A stretch of DNA of 64,000 bases from positions 406,971 to 470,970 of the forward strand of contig SHMX01000003.1 of assembly GCA_008080745.1 (NCBI GenBank), read 5' to 3'. Each line of letters starts with the position of its first letter. Within the stretch, counting starts at the first letter, position 1. The stretch is from Candidatus Thorarchaeota archaeon. Lineage in GTDB: Archaea; Asgardarchaeota; Thorarchaeia; Thorarchaeales; Thorarchaeaceae. Positions 8,286 to 63,559 of this stretch are shown here, piece after piece. A program made the position numbers and the translations under genes. The notes beneath the pieces were generated by a model. It was given only the letters and a program-made list of their open reading frames with translations. It did not search any database and was not told the origin of the DNA.

Positions 8286-8334
8286 CGAAAATCAAAAGAA
8301 TGATATTGTTCGAGGAGAATATTACACGGTAAAG

Positions 8335-10247: not shown

Positions 10248-10399
10248 CTATCTTTGATAGAGATAGAAGTTATGCTAATTATGTCTTTCTTAAGAAAATC
10301 TGGAAATAGAATGGATAATTCAAACAAGATTATAAAAAATCAGATATGAAACAGATATAACCTTGATTACTATAAGAAAATCTATGAGAGGTTTCAAAG

Positions 10400-10858: not shown

Positions 10859-10931
10859 CTTTCTCTACCGAATCAATGAAACAGAAAAAGAAAAGGGAAG
10901 GTGGTCAATAGACCACCAGATTCTATTGAAA

Positions 10932-11591
10932 TTAATCCATGCTCTTGACCCATTCGTAAACGGGTGCACAGAGTTCCTTCATTCGCTCCTTCTCAGGTGT
11001 ATCACCAACAGTTGGTTCCCAACCATCAGCTGGTTCAAACCACCAATCAGTCACTGTACCCTGGCGCTCATCTTCAGGCTTCCAGACAACTTTGACTGGC
11101 ATACCAAACTCTGCATCCCATGGGTCAATATTTCGTAGCTCGTTAGCAATGGCGGTCTTACATCCATCAACAACAACATAGGCAAGAACGAAGGGGAGTC
11201 GCTTCAAAGAAGACTTACCACTCCAGCCTGCGATGGTAAATGTGTGAACAATACCCTCTTGCTTTAGCTTGATCCATTCTGTCTTCTCAAGATTGTCATC
11301 AAGATTCCAGCAATTAACACGGGGCGGGAAGAATTTGTCACCACATTTGGGACATTTTGTTCCCCAGAATTCACCATCAATGAATCCTTTACCAAGCTTT
11401 GAGACCTCTGCATACTTCCAATAATATAATTGGTCATAGTGAAGATAGACTTTGAATTGCTCGGTCGTTGAATCATAGTCATAGCCCATAAATCCAATGC
11501 CAGTTTCTTTCACATTACCACGGAATTTGTTAGGATGCTTTACATCCCATTCCACTTTATCGGGAATTTCATGTAGTCTTGGATCAGTCAT
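10932..11591 (-). CDS. DUF35-type zinc-ribbon/OB-fold protein, thiolase partner
   Basis: 219 residues. A rubredoxin-like zinc ribbon (CPKCGDKFFPPRVNC) precedes an OB fold (GIVHTFTIAGWSG, LPFVLAYVVVDGCKT). DUF35 proteins bind acyl-CoA and bridge thiolase-fold enzymes to their partners, as in archaeal HMG-CoA synthesis and bacterial sterol side-chain aldolases. Only three of the usual four ribbon cysteines are visible. It starts four bases after the stop of the thiolase-fold gene, so the two are one operon and very likely one complex. The N-terminal extension of about 100 residues is unusual. Confidence 0.85.
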   Translation of the reverse strand: MTDPRLHEIPDKVEWDVKHPNKFRGNVKETGIGFMGYDYDSTTEQFKVYLHYDQLYYWKYAEVSKLGKGFIDGEFWGTKCPKCGDKFFPPRVNCWNLDDNLEKTEWIKLKQEGIVHTFTIAGWSGKSSLKRLPFVLAYVVVDGCKTAIANELRNIDPWDAEFGMPVKVVWKPEDERQGTVTDWWFEPADGWEPTVGDTPEKERMKELCAPVYEWVKSMD

Positions 11592-11594
11592 TGC

Positions 11595-12857: not shown

Positions 12858-13076
12858 TATTATCACGTTATTCCTAAAATCGATGTCCATCAGGACAGTC
12901 GATACTGCGAAACAGCGTTTCTATCTGGTACTTAACAGCTTCGGCTAAAGGGATGAATAACGAATAATGGTTCGAAATAAGGACCTAGAACTAGCTAAAT
13001 TTCAGAGAATTACAATCTAAAATGAACCATAGAGTGGTTTTCTGAATAAGGATAGATGTGACACCACCTGAATAAT

Positions 13077-14255
13077 TCAACTTTTCCGTTTCCGGATAAG
13101 GTACACAATCACCCCAATAACTAATACTATACCTAGAATTGCCATTGGGTGAGAAAGAACAAGTGATATTAATACAGGTAGGAATTCCGATTGCGTACCA
13201 GTATTCGATGTGTATATGATATAATCCGGAAGAGTGGTTCTTTCACCGGGGTCTGGAATCTGAGGACCTAGTTTTAGCACACGAAAATCGGTTATTGAAA
13301 TCGATGAATTGAAAATCCAAGAGATGCCATCGTCATCAGTATCCAATATTCCTTCCCAAGAATATCCAGAATTGATTGGGTTATACGCATACACTTGATG
13401 TCCTCCCCCGTTATCACAAAGGAACATTCCATAATTTTGCATAGCTCGTGCAATTACTTTCCCAGCCTCCTCCATTTCTAAGTCATCTACATCAATAGAT
13501 GGGTTCAATTGAAGTCGAGCTCCCTCAGGGATAGCAAGAGGATCATTCGATATACCATCACTTGTAGTAGCAGGACGTACAGCGCCTCCAGATTTCACGT
13601 AAAACCAATCTGTTGAATATACAAGTGCATGCTCGATTAAACCTCGATCAATCTCATGAGGAAAGATTAATCCTGCAGCAAGAGCAAATCCTGAACCTCT
13701 AGCTCCCCAGCTATCTCTATAAATCCCGTCAGAATCCAAAGAAATTTTGTTACCCCAAGAGGCAGTCCACCCAGATGGTGTTTTTTCTGCTTGCCAGAAG
13801 TCGTACTCGATTCGAGTACCGTTGTCTATGATACACAGATGTCCATCATCCTCAGGATCGGGTAAAGCATTCTCAGGGATAGGAACATCTTTCATAGTAT
13901 CCCAGATAGCCCATTCATCAGTGATGTCAATATCTTGCTGTGGTGTGGATGAGTTCGCAAAGAACACAGGCACACTCCATTTATCGACCCCAACAAACAA
14001 TTCACCTTCACTCATGCTATCAAGCAGGTTATTTACTATCTCTTCGGAGTTAGGTTCAATCTCAGCATTATCAGGAATAGGTATATTGAAGGGGCTTGCA
14101 TCTGAGAATGGACGAATACTCCACGCATCAGCTGAGGTATGATTCTGAGAAGTCATACTGAATCTTATTGTGCTATCAGTCAAAACTGGTATGAAAAATA
14201 GAATTACCAAAATAAACAGCACCAGTGTGAGCTGAATAGTTCTGATGCGGGTCAT
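13077..14255 (-). CDS. Exported protein with C-terminal membrane anchor
   Basis: 392 residues: signal peptide (about 8-27), a large ectodomain, a membrane span (about 368-386) and a KRKS tail. The ectodomain contains SWGARGSGFALAAGLI, then DRGLIEHAL and IPEGARLQLNP. I recall a similar order in secreted actinobacterial proteins linked to polysaccharides, but cannot name the family or an activity. Many N-x-S/T sites fit an N-glycosylated archaeal surface protein. It opens a run of exported proteins (13-18 kb). Confidence 0.65.
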   Translation of the reverse strand: MTRIRTIQLTLVLFILVILFFIPVLTDSTIRFSMTSQNHTSADAWSIRPFSDASPFNIPIPDNAEIEPNSEEIVNNLLDSMSEGELFVGVDKWSVPVFFANSSTPQQDIDITDEWAIWDTMKDVPIPENALPDPEDDGHLCIIDNGTRIEYDFWQAEKTPSGWTASWGNKISLDSDGIYRDSWGARGSGFALAAGLIFPHEIDRGLIEHALVYSTDWFYVKSGGAVRPATTSDGISNDPLAIPEGARLQLNPSIDVDDLEMEEAGKVIARAMQNYGMFLCDNGGGHQVYAYNPINSGYSWEGILDTDDDGISWIFNSSISITDFRVLKLGPQIPDPGERTTLPDYIIYTSNTGTQSEFLPVLISLVLSHPMAILGIVLVIGVIVYLIRKRKS

Positions 14256-14386
14256 ATCCTAAACCTAGTAATGTATAATGACTTTAGTGAAATATATCCA
14301 TCGATTTTCAAAGAACAGAGATAGACTATCTTTACTTCATCGCACTAGTAAAAAATTTGAATAGGTTTTAGTATATCAAGGAGAAT

Positions 14387-14935
14387 ATGAAAGGTAGTGA
14401 GCTTCTACTTCTGATATCAAAAGCTAGAAATTGCTTTGATCAAGGGCTTGCTTTAAACAATCAAACAAAGATTATAGAGGCCCTTGAAATTGGACTTGAG
14501 ATTCGCAGATTTCTGGACTCAGCAGATAGTGAAACCTTAGAGAGACTCGCATCCGAAATCGATCAGTTCAGGCATCTAGACGGGGGATTGAATTCGTTCA
14601 TCTATAACTGCATGAAATTAACAGGTAAATTTGAAGACATGCTCCCATATTTAGAGAAGACCGTACAGTATTTACAGAATGACCAGAATCCAGATCTTTG
14701 GAGGCAACTTGGGCTGTTGTATATGGTTCAGAAGCAAGATTTGGACAAAGCTTGTGAGGCGTGGAAAAGGGCTATCAATTTGGATAATACCTTAGTTGGA
14801 AAATTTCCTGGTCTCAATGTTGTGTACGTATATGATGCTATGAAATCTCAAGGTAAAGATGTGACATACAAGATAATATATGCAGATTTAGAGTCAGGGG
14901 ATTTCTCAGTAGAACTGAGTGCAAATGGGAATTAG
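14387..14935 (+). CDS. TPR-like helical protein
   Basis: 182 residues, all helical. The segment PDLWRQLGLLYMVQKQDLDKACEAWKRAINL (given here as two helices, about 105-136) is a clear tetratricopeptide unit, and weaker copies lie before it. TPR arrays bind partner proteins. The C-terminal 30 residues look like strands. The start is supported by AAGGAG three bases before the ATG. It lies between two exported-protein genes on the other strand, but has no signal peptide itself. Confidence 0.6.
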   Translation: MKGSELLLLISKARNCFDQGLALNNQTKIIEALEIGLEIRRFLDSADSETLERLASEIDQFRHLDGGLNSFIYNCMKLTGKFEDMLPYLEKTVQYLQNDQNPDLWRQLGLLYMVQKQDLDKACEAWKRAINLDNTLVGKFPGLNVVYVYDAMKSQGKDVTYKIIYADLESGDFSVELSANGN

Positions 14936-14967
14936 GATTTTTCACAGACTGCTTCTGAAATAAACAT

Positions 14968-16425
14968 TCACCTTCGATAATGCCACCAGACTGCAACACA
15001 CAAGAAACCAAGTAATGTGATTCCTAAATATAGATTCGTAAAATCGTGTGATGATGGACTTACTGGTGAGGTAGTAGGAGAATAGGGAATATCTGTTGAA
15101 GCAAACGGACTATACTCATATGGACCAATATCAAACAGACCATTGTAAGGTCGAAGTGTTCCTTCTATGTCATATGTAGGAGCGTAACTATCAGTCCCCA
15201 CATCGATGGCTGAGCTGTCATTTACGTGATGATAATCATTTCCAAGATAATCAACAAAAAGAGTAGAAGGTGCATAGGAATAAGAATTGGTATCAAATGA
15301 GATATCCTGCCATTCGTTTAATGATAGTGCATCATCACCAGTCCACACAATTTCTTCCGACTCCAAATGATAGAAGATATTGTAATCTGAGGTGACAGAT
15401 GAGGTGGTATCAAGCTCCAAAGCATAATCTCCAGAATCGCCAGCAATAAGTATGTTATTGACCGCAATATTTCCTGTGCTTCCTTCAATCATCTGTAATG
15501 CACTTCTGCCATAGCCCTCTTCAAAAATCACGAGGTTATTTGCAAATGTATTATCTTTGCAACCGTATGCCGTTCCGTCATTCCCATCATCCCAACAAGC
15601 AATTCCTCCAGCGAGATTATCGAAAAGAAGGTTGTTTTGTACGATGGTATTTCTGACGCTAGCAAAATTGATTGCAGCCCCACCCCCTTCACCATTGTGA
15701 TATACGTAGTTATTCTCAACTATGCCACCTGAGATTATACCATCTCCACCCATAAGGGGATCCGCATTGAATTGAATTCCGCTGGCATGATTATCATGAA
15801 CAAGACAGTTTCTCACAACGGGATAGTCACCAGAATTACTAAGATAGATCCCATGTTCTTCACCTGAACCGTAGGTCTCACAGGAATCGATGGAGATATA
15901 GTCTGCAAAGTCGCTGAAGATACCCCATTTCCCGTTATTTCCAAAAGTCGAATTTGTAACTGACACGTGATCAGACCAGCTTATTCTTAGGCCTGAACGA
16001 GGAGCATTGAGAATAACTAGATTCTCGATGATAATATTATCAGCATGATCTACAAATATCGCATCACGATTATCAAAATCAGATGGTAGTCCAGCTCCGT
16101 TTAGAATTGCATCTTGACCAGTTAGAGTAATAGGAGATTGTTCAGTGCCAGAGATTTCAAAATGAATGGCAGAATCAAGTTGATATTCTCCAGGAAGAAG
16201 GAATAGCGTATCACCAGTTACTAGCTGACTTACTCCATAGGATGGAGTCTGCCAAGGTTGGTCCATAGTACCTGTATTAGTATCACTACCAGAGGGAGAT
16301 ACGTAATATATGGTATATTCTTGTGAATAGACTATACAGGATGCTCCATAATTACTTATCATTATGGTGCAGCCTAAAAGTATAATCAGACATGTCACTA
16401 GGTTGGGTCGGCTGGTGGGCATCAA
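14968..16425 (-). CDS. Exported right-handed beta-helix protein, membrane anchored
   Basis: 485 residues with a signal peptide (about 10-35), then a DUF1565-like opening (YYVSPSGSDTNTG) that marks the start of a parallel beta-helix. About ten rungs follow with the PbH1 pattern, for example IIIENLVILNAPRSGLRIS, HGIYLSNSG and NTIVQNNLLFDN. Proteins of this shape are polysaccharide lyases, binders or surface adhesins; catalytic residues cannot be picked out. A C-terminal span (about 462-480) and HYRR tail anchor it. Confidence 0.8.
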   Translation of the reverse strand: MMPTSRPNLVTCLIILLGCTIMISNYGASCIVYSQEYTIYYVSPSGSDTNTGTMDQPWQTPSYGVSQLVTGDTLFLLPGEYQLDSAIHFEISGTEQSPITLTGQDAILNGAGLPSDFDNRDAIFVDHADNIIIENLVILNAPRSGLRISWSDHVSVTNSTFGNNGKWGIFSDFADYISIDSCETYGSGEEHGIYLSNSGDYPVVRNCLVHDNHASGIQFNADPLMGGDGIISGGIVENNYVYHNGEGGGAAINFASVRNTIVQNNLLFDNLAGGIACWDDGNDGTAYGCKDNTFANNLVIFEEGYGRSALQMIEGSTGNIAVNNILIAGDSGDYALELDTTSSVTSDYNIFYHLESEEIVWTGDDALSLNEWQDISFDTNSYSYAPSTLFVDYLGNDYHHVNDSSAIDVGTDSYAPTYDIEGTLRPYNGLFDIGPYEYSPFASTDIPYSPTTSPVSPSSHDFTNLYLGITLLGFLCVAVWWHYRR

Positions 16426-16541
16426 ATTTCTCTATTTTCAAAACCTAATAGATTCATCGCTATTAAGAGTACATACTTTTCATTTTCACACACCAGATAT
16501 TCTTTCTGTAGCCATTTGACTAAATAATAATCAATTAATGG

Positions 16542-16553
16542 TAAATATTAAAT
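16542..16553 (+). promoter_or_regulatory. Candidate TATA box of the exported protein gene at 16617
   Basis: TAAATATTAAAT lies about 70 bases before the start codon. An AGGAGATG ribosome binding site lies nine bases before the ATG, so the transcript would have a leader of about 45 bases. Confidence 0.35.
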
Positions 16554-16616
16554 ACGTGTCTCAAAAGGGGGTTACAAATTCGTGTGGATTACATGAATTT
16601 AGGAGATGTAATTTAA

Positions 16617-17666
16617 ATGAGAAGAGAGATATTCATTATGGGTATTCTTTTTACAATGTGTTTTGCGATGGTTCTGATCACTCCATCGCCAGTTGCAGCA
16701 ACAGATCCACCAGGTGTAGGAAATACACCAGTGGATGTAACAACTTTATCAAGTTGGGATTATGGTATTCATAAAATTTATGAGGATTACACTTACTTCA
16801 GGATGTACTCATATTATGGAATATTCACTGAAACCTCATTTCAACATGAGGTGTTTTTAGGAGGACCAACCTTTACTTCGCTGAAATCTACCCATCCATA
16901 TGTGAAATCACAATCCCTTACAGTCCAGAGGATACTGTGTTATGTGCCCATGTTTTCGTTAGAGAGTGAAAATTGGTACTCTCACACCTTAGAAATTGAC
17001 TCAAGTTTTCAAGAAACATTAGAATTCGAATTGAGTGCAGGAATTGATATTGATGATGGTACTTGTAAAATATGGGGTGGAGGATCTATTGCCACAACAA
17101 CAACATCTGGTTTTGGATGGAGTGTCACAGCTGAAAATGGTCAAACAAGGATAATCTATGTGAGGTCTATATTCCTCAGAGTTTTTGGTTCAGTAACATA
17201 TGATCTTGGCTCCAAAGGAACTGAAACACATACATATGATGTCACAATTCTTCAAGAATGTGATCTGAATAACATCGTAGTTAGAGACCTTAGTTCAACC
17301 TACAACAAGCTTCCTGTGGGAGAAAAAACCTACTATGATTCTGCAAATGATGGTGACTCTCAACCAGACCTATATTATGGTATGGGAAACAAATGGGTAT
17401 CATATGAAGAAGCATCTTCAGTGAGTTTATTTGTAGGGTTAGAATTCAAAATTGGAGATGAAGATTTTGCATTTTTTGGAGAAGCAAAGTTCACTTGGAC
17501 CAATTCCCAGTTCATTTCTATAAAACATATATTTGATGAAAAAATTGAAGATGCGTTTTCATATTACTACATATATCAGAACAATTTCTTCAATGTTAAC
17601 ATTGAGCCATTTTATACTGGTTCGGGCGGAGGTTCAGGCACCGGTCCAGTCTTGACACCCTGGTAG
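16617..17666 (+). CDS. Secreted protein of unknown function
   Basis: 349 residues. A signal peptide (1-29) ends in AATDPP. The mature part is rich in aromatic residues, serine and threonine, and appears to be all beta, with alternating hydrophobic strands. The end is a flexible GSGGGSGTGP segment, with no membrane anchor, so unlike its neighbours it should be released. A pore-forming or lectin-like beta sheet protein is conceivable, but I see no diagnostic motif. The ribosome binding site AGGAGATG fixes the ATG. Confidence 0.6.
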   Translation: MRREIFIMGILFTMCFAMVLITPSPVAATDPPGVGNTPVDVTTLSSWDYGIHKIYEDYTYFRMYSYYGIFTETSFQHEVFLGGPTFTSLKSTHPYVKSQSLTVQRILCYVPMFSLESENWYSHTLEIDSSFQETLEFELSAGIDIDDGTCKIWGGGSIATTTTSGFGWSVTAENGQTRIIYVRSIFLRVFGSVTYDLGSKGTETHTYDVTILQECDLNNIVVRDLSSTYNKLPVGEKTYYDSANDGDSQPDLYYGMGNKWVSYEEASSVSLFVGLEFKIGDEDFAFFGEAKFTWTNSQFISIKHIFDEKIEDAFSYYYIYQNNFFNVNIEPFYTGSGGGSGTGPVLTPW

Positions 17667-44012: not shown

Positions 44013-44567
44013 CTAGGATTTTCCTAAGACTCGCTCTTTCATAGATTGATATTTTTTCTTGATGACAGACCACACACTACGATTCTTTGATTCGTTCGCT
44101 AAAGATGCCATGGGACACTTATCACCAAGAGGACATTGATCTTCGAATCCATCATGATCATGCAGAGCAGATGGTAGTGCAGTAGTGAGTAGATCGTTTT
44201 TGAATTCATTCATGATATCTGATGAAATATGAGACCAATCGCGTTCCCGATATTTTTCCTGCATAAGAACAGACTGGACTTCCTCAAAGACTTTCTCTGC
44301 TAGAGTAGAATCATCCTCAGACAGGCCTATAACAATGGAATGACCTTGGGGAGTAGTTTTTGAGAATCGCATCTCAGTATCGCCCATTCGTACGGACTCC
44401 AGCCGGAGACCCTCTGATAGAGTTGGGGGTATGGTTTCAATGGCTGAAAGAAATCCTGATAACAATTCGGGATTTTTGAAAGCGGCTTTGCAAAAGTGGC
44501 CATAACATTTACTATAGATTGGTAGGCCTGATTCAGTGTAGACCATTAGATATTCAAGACGAGTCAT
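44013..44567 (-). CDS. Longin-like domain protein with cysteine-containing tail
   Basis: 184 residues. Residues 1-105 have the longin order: strands LEYLMVYTESGLPIYSKCYG, a helix (ELLSGFLSAIETI), strands (LRLESVRMGDTEMRFSKTT, HSIVIGLSE) and a helix (LAEKVFEEVQSVL). Such stand-alone domains are common in Asgard archaea and bind small GTPases. The tail holds QCPLGDKCPM, which may bind metal, and ends in a basic amphipathic stretch that could touch membrane. A GAGGAG site precedes the ATG. Confidence 0.7.
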   Translation of the reverse strand: MTRLEYLMVYTESGLPIYSKCYGHFCKAAFKNPELLSGFLSAIETIPPTLSEGLRLESVRMGDTEMRFSKTTPQGHSIVIGLSEDDSTLAEKVFEEVQSVLMQEKYRERDWSHISSDIMNEFKNDLLTTALPSALHDHDGFEDQCPLGDKCPMASLANESKNRSVWSVIKKKYQSMKERVLGKS

Positions 44568-48551: not shown

Positions 48552-48920
48552 TCAAACTGCGACTCCAGGATGACCTAGTGCTATAAGCTGGGAAGAAGTT
48601 TCACGAATACCATCAGTGATTTTCGCAGCTTCTTGAATTCTATTCATGAGCTCTTTTCTGAATTGAATTGCTGTCAGTTCGCCACTATCGAGTCGTCGAG
48701 TGAGTTCACTCCGCTCTCTCTGAAGTTCTTCACGTCTGGCAACCAAACGCTGATATTCAGCAATTAGCTGGGTTATCTTCTCCTTTGATTCAGGAGTCTG
48801 TTCAACTTCTGACTTTTTGGGAGTGCGTTCTGGAGCTTCGACTCTCATTATTTCGCGACCTCGTACAACGGTCTTCTTTTCTTTCTTTTCTTTACGTCTC
48901 CATCTGTCGAATAATCCCAT
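48552..48920 (-). CDS. Short coiled-coil protein
   Basis: 122 residues. A basic front (FDRWRRKEKKEKK) is followed by a disordered segment and a helical hairpin (about 50-115; EKITQLIAEYQRLVARREEL, QIRKELMNRI-like helix). The basic aromatic N-terminus might lie on membrane. The ATG at 48920 follows GAGGTGG by eight bases; the GTG upstream is part of that site. Third gene of the GTPase operon, 11 bases from the next gene. Confidence 0.7.
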   Translation of the reverse strand: MGLFDRWRRKEKKEKKTVVRGREIMRVEAPERTPKKSEVEQTPESKEKITQLIAEYQRLVARREELQRERSELTRRLDSGELTAIQFRKELMNRIQEAAKITDGIRETSSQLIALGHPGVAV

Positions 48921-48934
48921 TTGGATTTCCACCT

Positions 48935-49495
48935 CTATTTCATAAATTCTTCTACTTCTTTAAGTCGTGATTCCAATTTCTCTCGCATCTGACTCGCGAC
49001 CTCTGCTTTTTCATAGTACTCATCAGCACTAGCAGGATCGGTCATGGCCATCTCTTCAAATTCGGATTCCTTCTCAAAGAGTCTTGCTATCTTTAGCTTC
49101 AATTCATCAGTAACCCGCTCTAGTTCCTCACGAGATTGGGTTTCTGAGGTATCTTCTTCGGTCGTGGATTCATCCTCAATTGAGTCAGTAATAACAACAC
49201 TCGACTTACCTAGCTCGGATTCCTCCATGCCCATAATGTGAACCTTGATTCCCTGATTCAATCGTTTTTCAAGGGTTTCAAGTCTGCTCATAATGCCATC
49301 CATTGTATCATGCAATTTCTTGATGGCTACTGTCTGACGATTTATCGTCTTGAATATCTCATCTGCAAATTTTTCGAATTCTAATCCGTATGTGAAACTA
49401 TCGAGGGATTTTTTGATGCGGTCAATTTCATCTATTAGTCGTACTCGTTCCTCTTCGCTAATGATACTCTTGGTTATATCACTCATATCTACCAT
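48935..49495 (-). CDS. Coiled-coil partner protein of the GTPase operon
   Basis: 186 residues, mainly helical: helix bundle at 12-75 (RVRLIDEIDRIKKSLDSF, IFKTINRQTVAIKKLHDTM), a short strand segment, an acidic linker (EDESTTEEDTSE) and a C-terminal coiled coil. Its ATG directly follows the TAA of the GTPase gene, with no space, so expression is coupled. A second ATG three codons on is possible. Effector or regulator of the GTPase is an attractive idea without proof. Confidence 0.7.
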   Translation of the reverse strand: MVDMSDITKSIISEEERVRLIDEIDRIKKSLDSFTYGLEFEKFADEIFKTINRQTVAIKKLHDTMDGIMSRLETLEKRLNQGIKVHIMGMEESELGKSSVVITDSIEDESTTEEDTSETQSREELERVTDELKLKIARLFEKESEFEEMAMTDPASADEYYEKAEVASQMREKLESRLKEVEEFMK

Positions 49496-50377
49496 TTAGT
49501 CCACCTCGATATCTCCCACTATATGAAAATCAATCTCTTCAAAAGCCAGCATCCTAAGAAGTTCTAGCCATCTGTCACGAAAATCACGTTTATTTGCCTG
49601 CATACCGTATGCAGGGACTCCAAGCCGTTTGGAAACCTCCTCAGGAGATAGTGCTCCTTTCAGGTCCTGCTTATTCGCGACAGCAATTATTCTTGCATAA
49701 GGAAGCTCCGCTCTTAAGACCGGATACGCTACACGTTTGGTCCATGATATATTATCCTTCGTGGAGTCACTTACAATGACGACCATGCTCCCTGAACGAA
49801 TAATCTTCCCCCATTCCTGTACAAAACGATCCTGACCACCGAGATCAAACATGCTGAAAACATATGGATCAAAATTTCCGCGTAATAATGCTTTATCACC
49901 GAAAAAGGTTGGTACATAATCCTGTGGTGGTCCTTGTGAGGGAAGAGTAGCTAGTTCTAGTAAAGTTGTTTTGCCTGTACCACCATGACCTGCCAGACAG
50001 ACTTTCACAGGAATTCGTCCTACTATCTTACGAAAGTGAGAACCAAAGGATGAGAAATCAGTTGATTTCCAAGCCCCACTCTCCAGCAAATCTTGATAGT
50101 CCTCCATGAATTTTGAAACTAGGCCCATAAGTGCCTCATGGACCTTTCTAATGGAGGCTTGTCGGTCCATTGTAACTATAAATTGGGTGTCGTGACTATT
50201 CATGTACATGTATCTATAACGTTCAATCTCCAGATTGTCTATTTTCCATTCTTGGAGCTTTTTCGCAGAGGAAGACACTAACATCATAACTGCGTTTGAA
50301 TCTAAATCGATGTTTGGGATGATTATATCTTCAAATAGTGTTTCGCCATCTCGGAATATGTGGATTTCACGAATCAT
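49496..50377 (-). CDS. Arf-like small GTPase with N-terminal longin-like domain
   Basis: 293 residues. Residues 1-115 fit a longin fold (IREIHIFRDGETLFEDIII, QFIVTMDRQASIRKVHEAL). Residues 122-290 are a GTPase with the P-loop GHGGTGKT (130-137), switch I threonine in YVPTFFGD (T157), DLGGQ (178-182, with the catalytic-type glutamine) and NKQD (235-238), the Arf/SRP-receptor-beta type. The usual SAK motif is replaced by QANKRD. No N-terminal lipid anchor site is obvious. It heads a five-gene operon with coiled-coil proteins. Longin and Arf partners are normally separate proteins; here they are fused. Confidence 0.88.
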   Translation of the reverse strand: MIREIHIFRDGETLFEDIIIPNIDLDSNAVMMLVSSSAKKLQEWKIDNLEIERYRYMYMNSHDTQFIVTMDRQASIRKVHEALMGLVSKFMEDYQDLLESGAWKSTDFSSFGSHFRKIVGRIPVKVCLAGHGGTGKTTLLELATLPSQGPPQDYVPTFFGDKALLRGNFDPYVFSMFDLGGQDRFVQEWGKIIRSGSMVVIVSDSTKDNISWTKRVAYPVLRAELPYARIIAVANKQDLKGALSPEEVSKRLGVPAYGMQANKRDFRDRWLELLRMLAFEEIDFHIVGDIEVD

Positions 50378-50574
50378 CTAGTAGTCACTCCGGCACCCGC
50401 ATTGCATGATGACACACAGCTGCTCATCTAGGTCCCTAAACAAATCTACTCCAAATAGGAATTTGAGGGTATGTTGTTTATCATTCATTATTGGGATTTT
50501 GAACATTTTTTGTATCACCGTGCTGAATCGTAATATTCTAACATTTCTCATTAATCATAATAAAGATAGGAGAA

Positions 50575-50594
50575 AGGGAGGATAAACCCCCTCT
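50575..50594 (-). terminator. Candidate terminator after the giant surface-protein gene
   Basis: On the minus strand a G-rich arm pairs with a CC-TCCC arm around TTTAT (six pairs with one bulge), followed by TTCTCCTATCTTTATT. It lies about 22 bases after the stop at 50616. Confidence 0.4.
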
Positions 50595-50615
50595 CAACTA
50601 TCTCAGTGGTAGGTT

Positions 50616-53600
50616 TTATTCTTCTAATTCGTCCTCCTCAGGTTCATCTAAGTCAGACTCTTCAGTATCGATTTCTGCAGAGGCTTCGTCCTCAGCTTCA
50701 CTAGCGGTATCCTCTTCTTCGGACTCGGACACATCAGTGTCGGACTCGCTATCCTCGCTGGATACTTCTTCCTCGGCTGGTTCTTCTACCTCTTCGACTT
50801 CTTCTTCGGGAGTCTCTTCAATACCTTCCTCAGAAACCTCGGGTTCGGTAATGCTTTCATCTTCAGCTTCAATCTCAGCTTCACCCTCTATCGAGTCAGT
50901 TTCAGCATCATCTTCAGGAAGTTCAGCTTCTTCGTCACCCAAGTCATCCTCTGTAGACTCTGTTTCTTCGACTTCATCAATGTCCTCAGGAAGATCATCA
51001 GACTCAATATCTACCTCGTCAACCGTGATGGCATCAAGTTCTGCACTAAGTTCCTCCTCAATTGAGGGGCCAGTGTCAACAAAGTCTGTGCCTTCAGTTC
51101 CAATCTCGTCAAGTGCATCTAGTTCACCTAGAAGATCATCGGTCTCATCTGTGAGAAGATCTTCATAGGGCTCTTCGATGAACTCATCGATTACTGGAGC
51201 GGTAATGTCGAGATCAGCCAATCCAGGAGCTAGGATATCTGATACAACCATGCCCATGGTGGCAATACCTTCGACACTAGCAGGCTTACCATTCTCGATG
51301 TCACTGATTGCTCGGTTAATCTGTTTGATGTGGAATGGAACTCTCCATCTCTGAATAGCTACTACTGCCAAGCCTATTACAATGAATAGACCAGTCATTA
51401 CACCGATAGTTGTCAGAGTTGAAACTGGTACTCTAAAGCCAGTACCCAGAATGTCAACGGTTGGTTCAGAAACAGTCACACGAAGTGTGGATGTCTTATT
51501 CTGATACATCGGAGCGGATGCAGAGATACTTAGTTCATATGGAGCTGATTGGATAACACCAATCTGAGCTGTAGTCAATTGAATTGAGTAATGTGTTCCA
51601 TTGAAGGTGAAGTCATCCAGATCAAAGGAGGTTACTGGAGTTGTCAGAGTCATCTCAAGACCAGATATTGTTGGAGTCATTGGTACATCTGATGATATAT
51701 CCAAGAACTGCCAAGTAAGGAGGAAGTTCATCCCGTCCTCTACAACCCGATCCTGTCCCGTCAATGAAGTGTCTGCATATATAATGAGAGTTGGATGGAT
51801 GGTTATTGAGGTGTAGTTCTGCAGTGTTGCAGTGATGTTCAATGTGAACATACCAGGAATCTTACTGATTGGCATTAATGACGGATTGAAGTTCATCAGA
51901 TAGGTTCCACTGGAGGATCGATAGGTTGCGGTGAATGGTTCACCAGCGTACATCATTGTGATGCTAGCTCCTGCAAGAGCACCAGTGAGGTCAACCTGAA
52001 GATCTGCTACTTCGAACTCCAGAATCACATCAATACCTGTCACACCATATGTTGTAGTGTATATGTCCTCATTAGGTGTAAGAGAGGTGTCAACTGTTGC
52101 TATGGTAACAGGGATAACCAAATCAGGTATAGTATAGTTCTCGTTATCTACCCGGACAATCAAGTTGTAACTGCCAGCGGGCACTTGAGAGGTATCTACT
52201 GTCACTGCATAATCGTTTGGAGATGGTAAGAAGGTCAAAGCATATTGAGTTGTGTAGCCACTCCAAATATAGTAGACATAGACATTCTCTAGAGTTTCAG
52301 TAACCAAGTAGATTCGGTTGACTTCAACCTGAAGGTCGAAAGTCTCGGACCACTTGTAAGTGGGAGAATCCTGAGTTGGTGCCACCTTTATACATTCACC
52401 CTCAATTGGGTCAATGTATAATGATGTCATGTTCACGTTGTCAACATAGTTAGGCAATGTGTATGTGAAGGTTAGATTGTAGGCACCATAAGAGGCAGCA
52501 AACCAATCATCTGATGTTAGCTGAATCTCAAAAGTTCCATCACCATTATTGGTCATGACCCATGAGTAATCATCCATAGTGATTGTGACCTCAGCACCTA
52601 ACCAAATGAAACCACCATGTAAGTCATCGTAGAGAGATGCTGTGATGGTGAAATCATCTGTCCAATTCACATGTCCAATCGGATCAATCACCAGTGAAGC
52701 ATCTGTCTCTTGGACCAATACTATAACAGTAGTCAGTTGATGGCTTGCATATCCAGACTTCTCCATTGTGATTTGTATCACATAGACCGAACCTTGCACA
52801 TTAGCATTCATATTCAGAGCCTTGGTATCAACCGTAAAGGTGTACCAACCACCACCAAGATTGTACATTGTTGCAATCTCAGTGGAGGGGCTAAGTAATT
52901 GATACAGTTGACTATCAGGGTTGTCAATTGTTCCGCCATCCAGAGTGTTATTCCAATAGAAGGTAACATTGAACACATCTGCATAGAATTGTTCAAAGTA
53001 TTGACTATCTAGGACTATCTCATTCGGTACGGAATTAATTCTGACAAATACAGTTGTGATCGCAGTGGTTGCATCAGCCATTGTTGCAGTGATGGTAATT
53101 GCATAGAGGTCATCCTCCATAGGTACCGCATCAAATGCATTCAGAGTGGTATTGTATATTCCACCAGCGTATGGATCTAGAGTACCTGATTGGTCAACCA
53201 CGAACTCCATGTACCAATTGTATGCCACTGTAGCCCCAAGCACTGGGTCATTATCACGGGACTGATCCATTAAAGTAATCTCGATATCGAAGGTGTGAGT
53301 CCAATATGCCTCTAATGGGCTCTCAGCTGAACCATATTCAGTCTGAATGAACAATGGAATCCTAACAGTGATATTCAGAAATACTTGGGCATCCTCGTGA
53401 TTAGTCAATGACATAGTGATATCTAAACAGTAATCTCCAGACTCGATCAGAGTATTGACTTGGAATCGGTAGGTACCAGCCCCAAGATACTCAACTGTGA
53501 CGGATTTGCTCCAATTATGCACATAGCTTGCACCAGCAAGCCCTGTACCATCAGTTCTATTGAATACGAGGTCAAAGTGAAGAGATTCACCCCAATCAAC

Positions 53601-56600
53601 AACTACATCTCCACTACCGACTGGTTCAGGATTTAGGTCAGTCTGTGCTGCAGAAACTACAAAATAGCTATCAGTCATCCAAGCAAACTCGTAGTTATTC
53701 TTACTGCATGTCACGTTGATATGCCAATTTCCAACAGGGAGAAGATCTTTTGAGAAATCATATTCATAGACTCCTATTGTCTGTGACATGATAGAGGTCT
53801 CAGTGAGATAGACTTGTCCAGTATCATTGTTAATCCAATACACAGTCACTGATATTCCTGTAAGGCCAGGATCAGTTGAGTTGGTACTGAATTGATATTC
53901 AAATGTGAACGAGTCAGCTGCTGGAGACCATTCATAATTTGATGGACCTGTTAATACTACCTCCATTGGTACCTCGTCTATGACAAGGTCGACAATAATT
54001 GTCTGTCCAACGTAATTCTGTTTATTCAAGGTCACAGTAAGAGTGTAACTACCTACATTTAATCCATGAATTGCAGATGATGGTAGATCGTAGAAGACTC
54101 CATTCTCAGATAAGAATCCTGATCTTAGCAGAGTCGTACCACGCTTAATTGTCCATGAGTAGACCGAAAGATCTGTGACATTCACGTCATTGGTTATATC
54201 TTCAAGCCAGAAACTGTGGTCGGTATGTGTTTTGTAATAGTCGTTTATCAAATAGGTATCAAATGCATCTTGTGTTGTCTGTGCATTTAGAACTGTCAGG
54301 TAGATAGTCAGTTCTGTTGGGTCATCATAATTTGCTGGATTGGCATGTGCCCAGACTTTGATGACATAAGGTGTATCCGATGCATTTAGCATCCAGTAAT
54401 CAGTGTCAACAATCATTGTGAAATTGATTGCATCTTCTTTGATGACCCAATCATATGCACTTTGATTCCACGTACCAGTTGCCACAGGTGTTATACCCAT
54501 GTATACAGTGTAATTCACCCAGTAGATATCACTTGAAGGACTAATAGCACTTGTAGTTGTACCATCAAGGTCTCGATCAAAGAAACCAACAGTCCATGAG
54601 GCATTCTGACCCCATCGAACATTAAGGAAATATGTCGTCGAATTCAGCTCTGTGTAACTATCAGCATAAGTTGGTGAGGCAATGGTCACGTTATTCCAGA
54701 ACCACCAATCCTTATCACAAGTCGCATATTGAAGTGTTGCACTCTCCTCACCTGCAATAACTGATAGATTATATCCTACAGAATATGGTGTACTCATGTT
54801 AGCATGAATGAAAAAGAATGTAACATGACCTGTACTATTGGTAGTACCTTGAGCAACCAGGCCTCCACCGACTAAAGTCACATTCACTTGAGCTCCCTGT
54901 ACAAAGGTAGTAGGACTTGTTCGAACGTTCACGATCAAACGAGAAATTGGAATTTCAATCACTTGTTCGTAATATCCCTGTAAGTCTACGATTGATTCAG
55001 TATTATTTCTAGCCAGTGGGGTTTCATCATAGTCATCAGCAATCCAAGCATCAATATTCCAAGTACCATTTACAACTCTGTAGAAGGTATAATTACCATT
55101 CTCATCGCTGTATTCAGTAATCTTGTAGACATCTTGGTCAACTGAGTTGTTGACAGTGATGGTAGCTCCTTCAATCATCTGTTCATCCCATGAGGGGAGA
55201 TTGATTGTGAAGGTTACAAGCGGAATTTCCCAATAATATTCAGGAGTTCCACCAAATTCAGTATCAGAGATAGACCAGTTAGCAAATTCGAGAATATTGT
55301 CATAATTGTAAGATTCTACGGGTCCAGTATATCTTGCAAAGAAACTGTAGTCGTCTACTGGAATTCGGTAGAAATTCGCCCAACCAGTACTGTTGACTTC
55401 AGAAGTGAAGACATAGTTACTAGTCCCGTCATTGGAACCATCAGTGATATTTGATGCTCTAATATAGAGGGTCTCATCAGCAGTCTTTGCAATGGTATCA
55501 CCCATCAAATCTTCAGCATGAATGTCAAAGCTACCCATAGGCATGACAATAGTTACCGGAGTTACTGAACCAGTGATATCGTGGTTTGAATCGTTTCTAA
55601 CCCAGACAGCTGTATAATCAGTAAAACCACCTAGCCAGTTCTTTGCGTCAATACTAGTTTGAATCTCATAAGTTGCATTGTCGAGACCCTCGAACACAAC
55701 TAGACCATTAGAATCAGTTGTATCTGTTCGGGTTCCACCCTGGTCGTCTGTCCAAAGAACGTGTGTGTTTGGATCATGTAGACTTACAGCAACGCCCTCT
55801 ACTGGAATACCATCAACATCAACAACAGTGATATCAAATTCAAACAGGTGTACTTCATCACCATATTCTGCAACTAACCTAGCTTGGTCAACATCAGAAT
55901 GATAGGATGGAACCATCCATCCATATCCAGTATCGGAAGTTGGATTATAGGGTGCAGAAGTAGAAAATCTGCCTAGGTTGACAATACTAATGCTTGCATT
56001 GGAATTGATATGATACAGAGTCATTGAGGACGATACCGGCCTGAATGCAGCACAGCCACCTGCAGGAATCTGAAGCTGGCCATCGTTGTAGCCGTCAATA
56101 TCCACCAGTGCGTTTTCTTGAGCCACAATCATAAACTTGTAAGAGTTAATACCCCACATTTTGAAGTCGGTGCCAAATCGATCTCCAGTAATAGTAGGCA
56201 TCCAATCTCCAGCATCTCTTGCATTCGCTGGGTCATATACTCCTTCAACCATCAACATTGCTCCAGAATCACCACGGATGTGAGTCACATCTTCAGGATT
56301 AGTATCTGAGGCAACACCATGAGCAATTAGAGAAGAGCTGTTTGCCGCAACAGTGATAGTAGTCCATGAGGACCATCCAGATCCAGCATTGCGACGCCAG
56401 TCAACATCAACGGTAGAGTCTCCAAGATTTGTTACTCGTATCCAATCATTACCATTACCCATGTCAATGATGTAGAACTCCTCTCCAGCTAATTGACCAT
56501 CTACTGTGGAATAGCATCCCCATATGTCTCGTGCAAATGCCGAATCAACGTCGCCTGCACGGAAAGATAGAAGATTGGTTGAATTAACCATTGAAATAAC

Positions 56601-57698
56601 GTTGTAGTCAACTTGTCGCTTTGCTATGTACTCACCTGCATCTAATACAGCAGGCCATTCTGTAACTGCAGAGCCATTATAGAATTCCCAAAGGGTGAAA
56701 TCATCAGCAGCGCCAGTTGAATCCCATGCATAAACTTCAGTGTTATCTTCCATTGCCTGAGCCCAATAAGTGCCCTCGTTTCGGTCATCAAATCCTTCAA
56801 CTCCACCGAGGATAAACTCATGACCCACACCATAACCAAGCTGGTCGACTCCGGGGAACCAATCGTTAATAGAAGGATTACTTCCTTCATCACCTTGACC
56901 CATATGTACTGATATTGGATAATTAGAATAAATGGCATAGAACCCATGGAAAAGCGAGTAAGAATAGGTACTTGGTTCGTATCGGGCTGCTTCAAGTTTG
57001 TCTAATGTTCCACTTGGAACATTACTTGGATATACGCTACCAGATGAACCAGACCAACGAGCATCAAGATTTCGTGGATCATCCCATGAGTCTGTTGTGT
57101 CGTCCCACATCTCGATATAGTAATTGTTACTATCGTGATATGAAATCATGCTGATTAATGAGAAAGTGTAACTCTTGTAGACGAAGGGATAGTAATCAGG
57201 ATAACTAACTGTACCAACATCAATCTTGGCATAATAGACATAGTAGTTCCAATCAAGTGTACCTTGAGTCATGTTGACTGAGAATGTAACTGTTGCTGAT
57301 TCAATAAACTCAGCTGAATAATAAGTCACATTCCAGACCTGGAAAGGTAACTGTGTCCATGTTTCAGAGCTGTTGTCATAGTAGAGTGCTCGGATGGATC
57401 CATCATAGCAGTGACCATTCTCAAAAGTCAGGTCGATATGTACCGGAACCAGAGTTCTGTCAGAAATACCTGGTTCTGTGAAATTGAAATACCTACGATA
57501 GATGTATGTCGAGTTCCACCAGTTTGCTAGATCCTGTATTCCAGCAATCTCCATCTCTCCCTCTTGCATAAGCAACGGTGAATCCATTATGTAATCATCA
57601 GCAGAAGCTGTATTTGAAATAGGAGTACCATTACTTGCTGGAAGGATGAGGAGTACTGCTAGAAAAATCATAATTGATAGTTTTAGTTTGGTATCCAT
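50616..57698 (-). CDS. Giant Ig-like surface protein with membrane anchor and acidic tail
   Basis: 2360 residues. A signal peptide (about 1-25) precedes a DUF2341-like domain (about 55-160, WWNSTYIYRRYFNF) and regions that resemble carboxypeptidase-regulatory beta domains (VDVDGIPVEGVAVSLHDPN). More than ten Ig-like units of about 100 residues follow, many with a shared GLAGASV...W and Y-F-x-V-x-T pattern. One span (about 2095-2115) leads to a conserved-looking basic and helical segment and an acidic tail of about 180 residues. Dozens of N-x-S/T sites fit glycosylation. The tail could reach a cytosolic partner. Its ATG abuts the stop of the preceding gene. Confidence 0.85.
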   Translation of the reverse strand: MDTKLKLSIMIFLAVLLILPASNGTPISNTASADDYIMDSPLLMQEGEMEIAGIQDLANWWNSTYIYRRYFNFTEPGISDRTLVPVHIDLTFENGHCYDGSIRALYYDNSSETWTQLPFQVWNVTYYSAEFIESATVTFSVNMTQGTLDWNYYVYYAKIDVGTVSYPDYYPFVYKSYTFSLISMISYHDSNNYYIEMWDDTTDSWDDPRNLDARWSGSSGSVYPSNVPSGTLDKLEAARYEPSTYSYSLFHGFYAIYSNYPISVHMGQGDEGSNPSINDWFPGVDQLGYGVGHEFILGGVEGFDDRNEGTYWAQAMEDNTEVYAWDSTGAADDFTLWEFYNGSAVTEWPAVLDAGEYIAKRQVDYNVISMVNSTNLLSFRAGDVDSAFARDIWGCYSTVDGQLAGEEFYIIDMGNGNDWIRVTNLGDSTVDVDWRRNAGSGWSSWTTITVAANSSSLIAHGVASDTNPEDVTHIRGDSGAMLMVEGVYDPANARDAGDWMPTITGDRFGTDFKMWGINSYKFMIVAQENALVDIDGYNDGQLQIPAGGCAAFRPVSSSMTLYHINSNASISIVNLGRFSTSAPYNPTSDTGYGWMVPSYHSDVDQARLVAEYGDEVHLFEFDITVVDVDGIPVEGVAVSLHDPNTHVLWTDDQGGTRTDTTDSNGLVVFEGLDNATYEIQTSIDAKNWLGGFTDYTAVWVRNDSNHDITGSVTPVTIVMPMGSFDIHAEDLMGDTIAKTADETLYIRASNITDGSNDGTSNYVFTSEVNSTGWANFYRIPVDDYSFFARYTGPVESYNYDNILEFANWSISDTEFGGTPEYYWEIPLVTFTINLPSWDEQMIEGATITVNNSVDQDVYKITEYSDENGNYTFYRVVNGTWNIDAWIADDYDETPLARNNTESIVDLQGYYEQVIEIPISRLIVNVRTSPTTFVQGAQVNVTLVGGGLVAQGTTNSTGHVTFFFIHANMSTPYSVGYNLSVIAGEESATLQYATCDKDWWFWNNVTIASPTYADSYTELNSTTYFLNVRWGQNASWTVGFFDRDLDGTTTSAISPSSDIYWVNYTVYMGITPVATGTWNQSAYDWVIKEDAINFTMIVDTDYWMLNASDTPYVIKVWAHANPANYDDPTELTIYLTVLNAQTTQDAFDTYLINDYYKTHTDHSFWLEDITNDVNVTDLSVYSWTIKRGTTLLRSGFLSENGVFYDLPSSAIHGLNVGSYTLTVTLNKQNYVGQTIIVDLVIDEVPMEVVLTGPSNYEWSPAADSFTFEYQFSTNSTDPGLTGISVTVYWINNDTGQVYLTETSIMSQTIGVYEYDFSKDLLPVGNWHINVTCSKNNYEFAWMTDSYFVVSAAQTDLNPEPVGSGDVVVDWGESLHFDLVFNRTDGTGLAGASYVHNWSKSVTVEYLGAGTYRFQVNTLIESGDYCLDITMSLTNHEDAQVFLNITVRIPLFIQTEYGSAESPLEAYWTHTFDIEITLMDQSRDNDPVLGATVAYNWYMEFVVDQSGTLDPYAGGIYNTTLNAFDAVPMEDDLYAITITATMADATTAITTVFVRINSVPNEIVLDSQYFEQFYADVFNVTFYWNNTLDGGTIDNPDSQLYQLLSPSTEIATMYNLGGGWYTFTVDTKALNMNANVQGSVYVIQITMEKSGYASHQLTTVIVLVQETDASLVIDPIGHVNWTDDFTITASLYDDLHGGFIWLGAEVTITMDDYSWVMTNNGDGTFEIQLTSDDWFAASYGAYNLTFTYTLPNYVDNVNMTSLYIDPIEGECIKVAPTQDSPTYKWSETFDLQVEVNRIYLVTETLENVYVYYIWSGYTTQYALTFLPSPNDYAVTVDTSQVPAGSYNLIVRVDNENYTIPDLVIPVTIATVDTSLTPNEDIYTTTYGVTGIDVILEFEVADLQVDLTGALAGASITMMYAGEPFTATYRSSSGTYLMNFNPSLMPISKIPGMFTLNITATLQNYTSITIHPTLIIYADTSLTGQDRVVEDGMNFLLTWQFLDISSDVPMTPTISGLEMTLTTPVTSFDLDDFTFNGTHYSIQLTTAQIGVIQSAPYELSISASAPMYQNKTSTLRVTVSEPTVDILGTGFRVPVSTLTTIGVMTGLFIVIGLAVVAIQRWRVPFHIKQINRAISDIENGKPASVEGIATMGMVVSDILAPGLADLDITAPVIDEFIEEPYEDLLTDETDDLLGELDALDEIGTEGTDFVDTGPSIEEELSAELDAITVDEVDIESDDLPEDIDEVEETESTEDDLGDEEAELPEDDAETDSIEGEAEIEAEDESITEPEVSEEGIEETPEEEVEEVEEPAEEEVSSEDSESDTDVSESEEEDTASEAEDEASAEIDTEESDLDEPEEDELEE

Positions 57699-58907
57699 TT
57701 ACTCAACCCCCGCGACCATTTTGGTGGCCTGTGATGGATGGAACTGTCTAAGTACCTCCAAATAGTGCAACGCTTGACGACTTGGAATCTCTTCTGTATT
57801 GTACAAGGTTACAGTTCGATCAATTAGCCACTCAGGATAGACCGTGATAACTTCAGGACTGCTCTTTAGCAGAACATGTTGTCTACCTTCTTCATCATTT
57901 ACGGTAATAACAATACCAGCTTTTTCTAGTTCTTTTAGCAATTTGCGCAGGCTTCCCTGAGTTATGTCCAGCATACCAAGAAGATCTTCACCAACTTGTG
58001 GACCCGCTCTGAGAATCTGAAGCAGGTCATAGACCTGAAAATCAAGTAGATACTTTGCTAATTCCTCAGCCTCTGCCCAAATAGTTTCTGAGAGGTCTTT
58101 CCGAAGTTTAGCGACATATTCGCGATGATAGCGCTTTGTAGTCTCCAAGAACTGTTTTGCAACAGTTGTTGGGATTTTACCAGCTTGTACTTTCCTTAAG
58201 GTCTCTACAGGTGTCTTCCTGAGAATAAGGATTGCACGTGTGAGATAGACAACCTCTGAGGCAAGTCCCTCAACCCAACCTGTCGCAATGATACCCATCT
58301 TGACTAAAGGGCGTAGAACCATGTCCACATCGATTTTCTTACCCACCTCTTCAAAGATCATTTGTTCCAGGTCCGCGTTTTGTACGGTACCGTTTCGAAT
58401 CAGGGTCTGAAGAAGAGACCTACGTACAGGGTCACTTAGAATAGACGCTTGTCGTTGCTCTGGCGTCATCTGAGTGTACCGTGAAATCTGTTTGTATAAC
58501 TTAGGAACCATCTTGACATACTCATCGTCCTCCAAATTCAAGAAGATCTGAGTGGCCATCTCAGGAAGAGCATCCTTGTACACATCTGGGTCCTCATCTG
58601 GACCAAGTACCAAGAACACCATAGATGGTTGTCCCTTCAAGTGCATGTTGAGCCCGCCGTAATATACTGCGAGCTTAAACTCATCAAAAGCAAGTGAATT
58701 AAATCCGGGCTTCTGTGACTCCTCGGTTTCACCAAGAGTTGCAATACCATAGACCCGCATGGACGTAGTTGGGTCTAGACCGATTTGTAGACTCTTTGGC
58801 GTCTTGGAGGTAACCACAGGTCCCAGTTCATCATCCCATTTTAGAACCGCGAGTCCTTCTGGCATCGTTTTTTCTCCATTGTGATATCCGACAATATATG
58901 GAGTCAT
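57699..58907 (-). CDS. Longin-like plus winged-helix cytosolic protein, operon partner of the giant protein
   Basis: 402 residues. Residues 15-145 have longin order: LAVLKWDDELGPVVTSKTP, VYGIATLG, FKLAVYYGGLNMHLKG, PSMVFLVLG and helices to about 145. Residues 155-225 and 295-370 look like winged helices (DPVRRSLLQTLIRNGTVQNA; VGEDLLGMLDITQGSLRKLL), separated by charged helices. The start may also be the ATG at 58865, which has a better GGAG site. It lies one base before the giant gene, which implies joint production. It may bind a GTPase or the acidic tail, which is inference. Confidence 0.75.
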   Translation of the reverse strand: MTPYIVGYHNGEKTMPEGLAVLKWDDELGPVVTSKTPKSLQIGLDPTTSMRVYGIATLGETEESQKPGFNSLAFDEFKLAVYYGGLNMHLKGQPSMVFLVLGPDEDPDVYKDALPEMATQIFLNLEDDEYVKMVPKLYKQISRYTQMTPEQRQASILSDPVRRSLLQTLIRNGTVQNADLEQMIFEEVGKKIDVDMVLRPLVKMGIIATGWVEGLASEVVYLTRAILILRKTPVETLRKVQAGKIPTTVAKQFLETTKRYHREYVAKLRKDLSETIWAEAEELAKYLLDFQVYDLLQILRAGPQVGEDLLGMLDITQGSLRKLLKELEKAGIVITVNDEEGRQHVLLKSSPEVITVYPEWLIDRTVTLYNTEEIPSRQALHYLEVLRQFHPSQATKMVAGVE

Positions 58908-62419: not shown

Positions 62420-63559
62420 TTAGTCATTCTGTTCAGGATTCTGAGAATCATCAAGGGATTTCTTGAATCTCCAGATGGCAACTTCAGACCTGCTGATTCT
62501 AAGTTCCTCCCAGATTTTGAAGCGAATCTCAGATCTTCCGTAATCCTGTTTGATGAGACTTTGAATTAATTCCTTCTCAGACTCACTCATATATCCTGCT
62601 TCACTTGATACTTGGGTCATTCTCGATAAGTGATTCAGTTTCTTCTGACGGCCAGATGCAAATTTGAATAGTGGTAGATGTGCAGCTTTAGGGATATCCT
62701 CAACACGATGAATGAGAACTCTGGAATCAGAGAATTTTGTTGAAAACCCTAGAGAGTCTAGTACTCTTGAGTAGAATTCTCCCTCTGAGGTTGTACTAAT
62801 CTCTGCCAGCATAGATGTTACTGTGCCATCACCATCTGAAACACCTTGAATAAAACAAATTCGAAAATCTTTAGGAGCATCTATAATCCACTCTGCATCA
62901 ATGTTAGATTTACTTCCTTTGAGTTGAAATCCAAGACAACTTCGTTTTATCCAGTTTAATATTGGAGAAGATTCACTAATCCAATTCATTGTATAGGATT
63001 CTCTTATTGAGTCATCCCATTCGTAAAGGGAGATAGAATCAGCTATTTGGTGGGCATTAATTCCAATCCGGCCTAAACAATAACAAAATCCATCGCCAAA
63101 GTTTTTACTCCAATCATAGGTCTTTGACAAGTTCAAAGCAACCCTCTCGACTACACTCTTTCTTTGAAAATAGCCATCGGAACAAATAACTCCAAGAACA
63201 TATCCTAATGCGTTAGATTTTGATATCTTTCCAAAACTTCGTGTCCAATCTCTCATCTGCTTTGTTTCAACCGATGATATCTGAGATAATACATATCTAA
63301 CAGCATCATGATATTTCACTCTAAATGGAACCTTAATCCAGTTAGTAAAGCTCTTACCTTTAGTCGAGATCGGAAGCCACATCCAATTATGGGGAGTGGG
63401 GAATCTTGGAATCTCACTTGCGAGTCGAGGAAGTCTAGGTAATTGACATTTGATCCAGTTGTCTACATTCTTCCGATGAGTACACGATATACGAGCAATA
63501 TCCCTTCTGAGACCTCCTTCTTGGATATGAGAAAGAAACCTATAGAATTGTTTAGCCAT
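62420..63559 (-). CDS. Free-standing LAGLIDADG homing-endonuclease-like protein
   Basis: 379 residues. Two LAGLIDADG helices are visible: ALGYVLGVICSDG (117-129) and FIQGVSDGDG (236-245), each with the acidic residue that binds the metal. The N-terminal 110 residues have three copies of a short HTH-like pattern ending in WI (DNWIKCQLPRLPR, TNWIKVPFR, RDWTRSFG), and the C-terminus repeats it (EVAIWRFKK). This suggests a DNA-binding front. It is not inside another gene or an intein. It could be a mobile endonuclease or a domesticated regulator. Confidence 0.8.
   Translation of the reverse strand: MAKQFYRFLSHIQEGGLRRDIARISCTHRKNVDNWIKCQLPRLPRLASEIPRFPTPHNWMWLPISTKGKSFTNWIKVPFRVKYHDAVRYVLSQISSVETKQMRDWTRSFGKISKSNALGYVLGVICSDGYFQRKSVVERVALNLSKTYDWSKNFGDGFCYCLGRIGINAHQIADSISLYEWDDSIRESYTMNWISESSPILNWIKRSCLGFQLKGSKSNIDAEWIIDAPKDFRICFIQGVSDGDGTVTSMLAEISTTSEGEFYSRVLDSLGFSTKFSDSRVLIHRVEDIPKAAHLPLFKFASGRQKKLNHLSRMTQVSSEAGYMSESEKELIQSLIKQDYGRSEIRFKIWEELRISRSEVAIWRFKKSLDDSQNPEQND

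Follow-up and report, generated by a model that had tools for sequence, protein, structure and literature searches.

The window analyzed here, a stretch of 64,000 nucleotides on contig C3 of the Thorarchaeota genome that we denote G000, carries on its minus strand a gene for a cytosolic protein with one longin domain and two winged helices (hereafter LWH), a gene for a giant surface protein, and a gene cluster that encodes a small GTPase and coiled-coil proteins. The features of the locus are:

57699..58907, minus strand: LWH gene (gene A), cytosolic longin-winged helix-winged helix protein, 402 codons
58470..58865, minus strand: longin domain of LWH, aa 15-146 (beta-beta-alpha-beta-beta-beta-alpha in the AlphaFold2 model; Foldseek)
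58215..58463, minus strand: winged helix 1 of LWH, aa 149-231 (AlphaFold2; near-neutral charge)
57840..58040, minus strand: winged helix 2 of LWH, aa 290-356 (AlphaFold2, with weak Pfam HTH/ArsR/MarR matches)
50616..57698, minus strand: giant single-span surface protein (gene B), 2360 aa
57624..57698, minus strand: signal peptide of the giant, approximately aa 1-25 (hydropathy, sequence)
55839..57551, minus strand: conserved N-terminal region of the giant, aa 50-620
51444..55841, minus strand: repeated beta-sandwich / Ig-like stalk of the giant, aa 620-2085
51354..51422, minus strand: single transmembrane span of the giant, aa 2093-2115 (span ends approximate)
51201..51353, minus strand: conserved juxtamembrane segment of the giant, aa 2116-2166, candidate LWH docking site
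50619..51200, minus strand: acidic, poorly conserved tail of the giant, aa 2167-2360
49496..50377, minus strand: longin-Arf GTPase, 293 aa (longin aa 1-119, GTPase aa 120-293)
48935..49495, minus strand: coiled-coil protein, 186 aa, same gene cluster (synteny)
48552..48932, minus strand: coiled-coil protein, 126 aa
47143..48540, minus strand: coiled-coil protein, 465 aa, with a C-terminal winged-helix-like segment

The original prediction had set the stop of a 402-residue gene against the ATG of a 2360-residue gene, and its junction coordinates were right: the minus strand reads GAG TAA followed directly by ATG GAT, with zero bases between the two genes. The length of 402 residues holds for the open reading frame, but translation probably begins at codon 15 (position 58865), which would yield a protein of 388 aa. 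This start is favored because the orthologues are mostly 388 aa long and M15-P16 is nearly invariant among 47 sequences, and because a GGAG motif stands 8 nt before it and the model gives residues 1-9 a pLDDT below 50. Besides M15-P16, the conserved residues of LWH include G29, P37 and E105-D106-P107.

Searches of LWH against the PDB with phmmer and hmmsearch matched chiefly winged-helix regulators, and hence a fold search was needed. The AlphaFold2 model, built from the 47-sequence alignment, had a mean pLDDT of 91.2 and a pTM of 0.85, and its predicted order of domains is longin (aa 18-125 in the model), winged helix 1, a helical linker, winged helix 2 and C-terminal helices; the longin and winged-helix assignment made earlier is borne out by the model, with two winged helices rather than one. 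When the model was compared with the PDB by Foldseek, places 1 to 9 were all occupied by chains of the GATOR1 or SEA complexes (E values of 1e-4 to 1e-3), and archaeal transcription factors and a Lokiarchaeal longin ranked below them. The Foldseek rows give the complex and not the subunit; we take the longin-winged helix chains of these complexes to be NPRL2, NPRL3 and their yeast counterparts. The TM-scores against these chains were low (0.21-0.29) because the domains are oriented differently, so that the likeness of LWH to GATOR1/SEA is one of domain order and longin fold, not of whole-chain superposition.

NPRL2 and NPRL3 (GATOR1, SEACIT) likewise have an N-terminal longin domain followed by winged helices, and they work near small GTPases; as GATOR1 subunits they pair with each other and with DEPDC5 and have GAP activity on RagA. 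LWH differs from them in several respects. The NPR2 profile PF06218 found nothing above the cut-off in any of 59 genomes and left LWH unmatched, and LWH as a member of the NPR2 family was rejected on the result of this search. The arginine finger of NPRL2 presumably sits in the beta4-beta5 loop of the longin domain; in that loop of LWH (aa 84-95, gapped) no conserved arginine was found among the 47 sequences. Finally, the partners of LWH are a surface protein and an Arf-type GTPase, whereas a Rag-type GTPase stands on the NPRL2/NPRL3 side. An 'NPRL2-like longin domain' is listed among the Asgard eukaryotic signature proteins (PMC9834061), and that class probably holds LWH. The part of the paper that gives this listing makes no mention of a surface protein, a fusion or a GTPase neighborhood.

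A signal peptide, a single span and a very acidic tail had been predicted for the giant, and all of them were seen (by hydropathy, and with a net charge of -97 over the 194 residues of the tail). The extracellular part contains 48 N-x-S/T sequons, and the first ~120 aa of the conserved N-terminal region recur in giants of other Asgard families. Profile self-comparison of the ectodomain between aa 600 and 2050 gave many significant pairs of ~60-90 columns, with a best E value of 1e-10. The many Ig-like units of the original prediction are supported by these repeats and by beta-sandwich matches in Pfam (CarboxypepD_reg at 9e-6, SdrD_B and bMG3), but they are not proven, since all the Pfam matches of the window giant lie under the curated cut-offs. 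In paired giants of other loci, Laminin_G_3 and Invasin_D3 were found above the cut-off and Big_1 below it. The internal repeats, together with the Pfam domains of the window giant and of its paired or fused homologues, point to an adhesin-like ectodomain, and the window giant and the homologous pairs alike have the repeated domains and the secreted, membrane-anchored chain of Ig-like/lectin adhesins.

Past the acidic tail, the giants of loci L035, L036, L041, L043 and L046 share a terminal motif (about LTKRELIEQLP..I..SMSEDEL.KLSK.EL..LL), and the window giant is without this motif of other Thorarchaeota giants. The L043 giant (4553-11890) has a helix-hairpin-helix-like insertion (ISDISGVGPTLAERLEEAGYGSL...) within its acidic tail.

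Homologues of LWH were located in 52 of 59 relatives and in 143 of the 180 phylum genomes that are at least 80% complete. In the Thorarchaeota family a giant lies directly downstream of LWH in 18 of 21 orthologous loci, and with one exception among these 18 the gap between the genes is -20 to +3 nt; in the remaining three loci (L047, L049 and L050), which are without a giant, the GTPase gene directly follows LWH instead. Long orthologous matches to the N-terminal region of the giant all adjoin LWH where the contig is readable (in G024 they are split over contigs). The pair is also found in six or more other families (f2, f3, f5, f12, f25 and f26), and in f2, f25 and f26 a giant adjoins LWH in every sampled main-clade locus. 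The order of the two genes is swapped between families, the giant of f2 being usually upstream of LWH with stop and start overlapping by one base, and tandem duplicated pairs are present in several genomes. Giants account for 44 of the 169 LWH-adjacent ORFs versus 8 of the 672 non-adjacent ORFs of the same loci; the pairing exceeds chance. Separation of the homologues in most relatives, which the original prediction had named as telling against it, was not observed for the orthologues, which are mostly adjacent and are fused in five genomes; giant-less longin-winged helix paralogues do exist, and one Thorarchaeota clade (10 rows) has neither a giant nor a GTPase as neighbor, which indicates that LWH has other uses. 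On the LWH tree the label of giant adjacency is clustered, yet ~8 changes are required, so that adjacency was lost or regained several times. A one-to-one stoichiometry of LWH and giant was rejected, because some loci have two giants per LWH (LWH-giant-giant in L099, giant-LWH-giant in L098).

An LWH match inside a 2655-aa open frame first revealed that the two genes can be fused. Thirteen fusion ORFs, verified by reading frame and HMM, were found in five genomes of two genera (four each in G132 and G146, three in G135, and one each in G134 and G147), and six of the 13 extend over the full length, with both signal peptide and stop codon. One fused receptor is ORF 8688-16634 of locus L124, with aa 2195-2648 as its C-terminal part. 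Each consists of a lectin/Ig-like ectodomain, one span, the juxtamembrane segment and a C-terminal LWH, which is complete and begins ~105-110 residues past the span. Along the fused ectodomain, Laminin_G_3 (2e-61) and DUF2341 (9e-21) each match in three stretches. The LWH start, MP.GL, is altered in most fusions (KPLGL, RPIGL, VPQGL), and with the methionine replaced, translation of LWH on its own could not begin at this point. Since LWH follows the span and the juxtamembrane segment in one chain, its side of the membrane is fixed, and by homology so is the topology of the split pair. Tethering of LWH to the giant is thus well supported, and the fusions are the strongest argument that the two proteins would also be in contact where they are made separately. 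Four of the fused receptors, of ~2650 aa, lie in tandem in G132:C9:438000-470000, and G146 has at least four, a lineage-specific receptor expansion.

According to the original prediction, the cytosolic protein may bind the acidic tail of the surface protein or link it to GTPases. The fusions favor the joining, but conservation points to another docking part. Among 12 full-length orthologues the best-conserved 60-aa block of the giant is aa 2101-2160, that is, the span and the juxtamembrane segment, with 55% identity, so that the segment that had looked conserved in the single sequence is indeed so, proline 2121 being one of the conserved residues; past aa 2220 the tail has 20-23% identity, and for this poor conservation it was rejected as the main docking site. 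The piece between span and LWH in the fusions equals the juxtamembrane segment of the split f2 giants (hhalign, 1.8e-28). The f1 segment is connected to the f2 and fused segments via intermediate families (7e-8 and 1.5e-11); the direct f1-f2 profile match is weak (E value of 0.001, probability 21%). It is likely, judging from these alignments, that the juxtamembrane segment rather than the acidic tail docks LWH.

That the motif is exclusive to LWH-paired giants was rejected, because other giants, away from LWH, have a weaker form of it; it may therefore not be specific. Within G000 the weaker form was seen in C1:9692 (3397 aa), C1:40143 (5022 aa) and C6:137124 (2633 aa); the first two have no adjoining LWH and might share one in trans. 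The motif also occurs in short proteins (G000:C1:75690-75836; L079 10964-11374; L092 10280-10870; L081 6239-6760; L084 5605-6159). These proteins, of ~140-196 aa in the loci and some with an N-terminal span, lie a few kb from the giant-less LWH-GTPase pair; they are perhaps a minimal membrane anchor.

A connection of the cytosolic protein to GTPases, another element of the original prediction, gains support from the fusions and from the longin-Arf GTPase encoded next to the pair. The P-loop, DxGGQ and NKQD motifs of the window GTPase are intact, and the P-loop GK, the switch-II Gln and NKQD are invariant across 27 GTPase sequences. The protein matches PF00025 (1.5e-12), Arf1 chains are its top PDB profile matches, and its top fold match is 8oum (GerdArfR1, an Asgard Arf GTPase). 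At its N-terminus it has a longin topology (E2-9 E12-18 H27-39 E46-51 E54-61 E64-71 H76-100), and the amphipathic, myristoylated N-terminal helix of classical Arf proteins was not found there. It is of the same type as the Asgard ArfR GTPases such as GerdArfR1 and as the longin-GTPase fusions described in MK-D1 (PMC10933270). In MK-D1, small GTPase genes generally do not share operons with genes for longin or roadblock proteins, and the general absence of such operons makes it difficult to pair GTPases with regulators (PMC10933270); at the LWH loci, in contrast, the GTPase-longin neighborhood is conserved.

The GTPase gene lies downstream of the giant in all 11 Thorarchaeota loci that are readable that far, directly after LWH in f4, f6, f11 and f27, and in a giant-LWH-GTPase trio in f5 (L053); a further, separate Thorarchaeota paralogue of LWH has a gene that overlaps that of a related GTPase. 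In f2 the GTPase is usually outside the LWH-giant operon. In the window, the giant and the GTPase gene are 238 bp apart, and a terminator-like hairpin with a T-rich tail is located just 3' of the giant stop (50572-50595, minus strand), so that the GTPase may be transcribed apart from the giant. The 126-aa coiled-coil gene accompanies LWH and GTPase in f1, f4, f5, f11 and f27, usually close behind.

These results suggest that the giant, LWH and the nearby small GTPase form a receptor linking the cell surface to GTPases. We consider it probable that the two abutting genes specify a single transmembrane adhesion receptor in two halves, with LWH as the adaptor for the longin-Arf GTPase. The giant half would expose its lectin/Ig-like ectodomain outside the cell and cross the membrane once, and cytosolic LWH would dock on the conserved juxtamembrane helix, the two being one chain in some lineages. 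The longin domain of LWH, held at the membrane, would be a platform for the longin-Arf GTPase of the same cluster, and further coiled-coil proteins may join this assembly. Once the ectodomain binds its target, which may be a surface, a partner cell or a glycan, the state of the GTPase would change; in the alternative direction, the GTPase would determine through its state where the adhesin lies or how it is anchored.

Eukaryotic longin-Arf pairs serve in delivery at membranes, and LWH with its GTPase might instead be a trafficking or insertion module for the giants, with no signalling by the ectodomain. Giants require export, some loci have one LWH with two giants, and the SRPRB profile matches 20 of the 27 GTPases. 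The SRalpha longin (SRX)-SRbeta pair indeed resembles the cluster in joining a longin domain and an Arf-like GTPase at a membrane; it differs in having no adhesin, and its sequence link to the LWH cluster consists of those SRPRB matches. We regard this explanation as unlikely, since covalent fusion to one giant class marks LWH as a permanent subunit in fixed stoichiometry, not as a delivery factor that is used repeatedly, and other giants in the same genome are without an adjoining LWH.

It is distinctly unlikely that LWH binds DNA to regulate the surface-protein gene and that the fusions are membrane transcription factors like ToxR and CadC. Two winged helices, the weak Pfam and PDB matches to ArsR/MarR regulators and the archaeal transcription-factor chains in the Foldseek list would fit this role, but those chains rank below GATOR1/SEA, which gave the best fold matches, and the winged helices, with mean charges of -1.7 and -0.2 (near zero or negative), are unlike typical DNA binders. 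ToxR and CadC carry an OmpR-type winged helix N-terminal to the span, whereas that of the fusions is C-terminal to it and MarR/ArsR-like; moreover, a regulator would leave the longin domain and the neighboring GTPase unexplained, and the fusion to a very large surface chain speaks against it. That the gene order reflects translational coupling for dosage with no physical contact, which is all that stop-start abutment by itself would show, is very improbable and is largely refuted by the 13 fusions, together with the order swaps and the recurrence in at least seven families.

The adhesion receptor coupled to a GTPase that we favor would share its working principle with the plexins and integrins of eukaryotes, adhesion receptors that are coupled to small GTPases: a single-pass receptor combines a beta-sandwich ectodomain with a GTPase-linked module in the cytosol. 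Homology is not claimed, and the cytosolic module is a different one, longin-winged helix-winged helix. The parts are of known kinds, and for their combination, the pairing of LWH with a surface protein, no description was found in the open-access literature, to which the search was confined. A broader reading, to which we give a little less than an even chance, is that single-pass adhesion receptors of this kind make up a previously undescribed class present throughout the Asgard archaea, in which an NPRL2/3-like longin-winged helix-winged helix module controls a longin-Arf GTPase.

Asgard archaea are the closest prokaryotic relatives of eukaryotes, and they are rich in eukaryote-like GTPases and longin proteins, for which the matching of regulator to GTPase and the cellular site are open. 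The cluster offers a matched set of surface protein, longin-winged helix adaptor and longin-Arf GTPase, the topology of which is established by natural fusions, and it makes surface-to-GTPase signalling in archaea, before eukaryotes, a testable idea. NPRL2 and NPRL3 are subunits of human nutrient signalling, and the longin-winged helix architecture, used in eukaryotic nutrient sensing, acquires here a membrane-receptor setting. If the proposal is true, there is a prokaryotic pathway from a transmembrane receptor to a small GTPase that predates or parallels the eukaryotic ones, and GATOR1-type longin-winged helix proteins began, or also served, as subunits of plasma-membrane receptors.

At the far end of the cluster, a 184-aa protein (44013-44567, minus strand) gave a weak match to the first longin domain of Fuz/MON1/HPS1 and is retained at this place in several Thorarchaeota. 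On the other side of the pair, a 379-aa ORF 5' of carboxylase genes (62420-63559, minus strand) looks like a homing-endonuclease-type protein.
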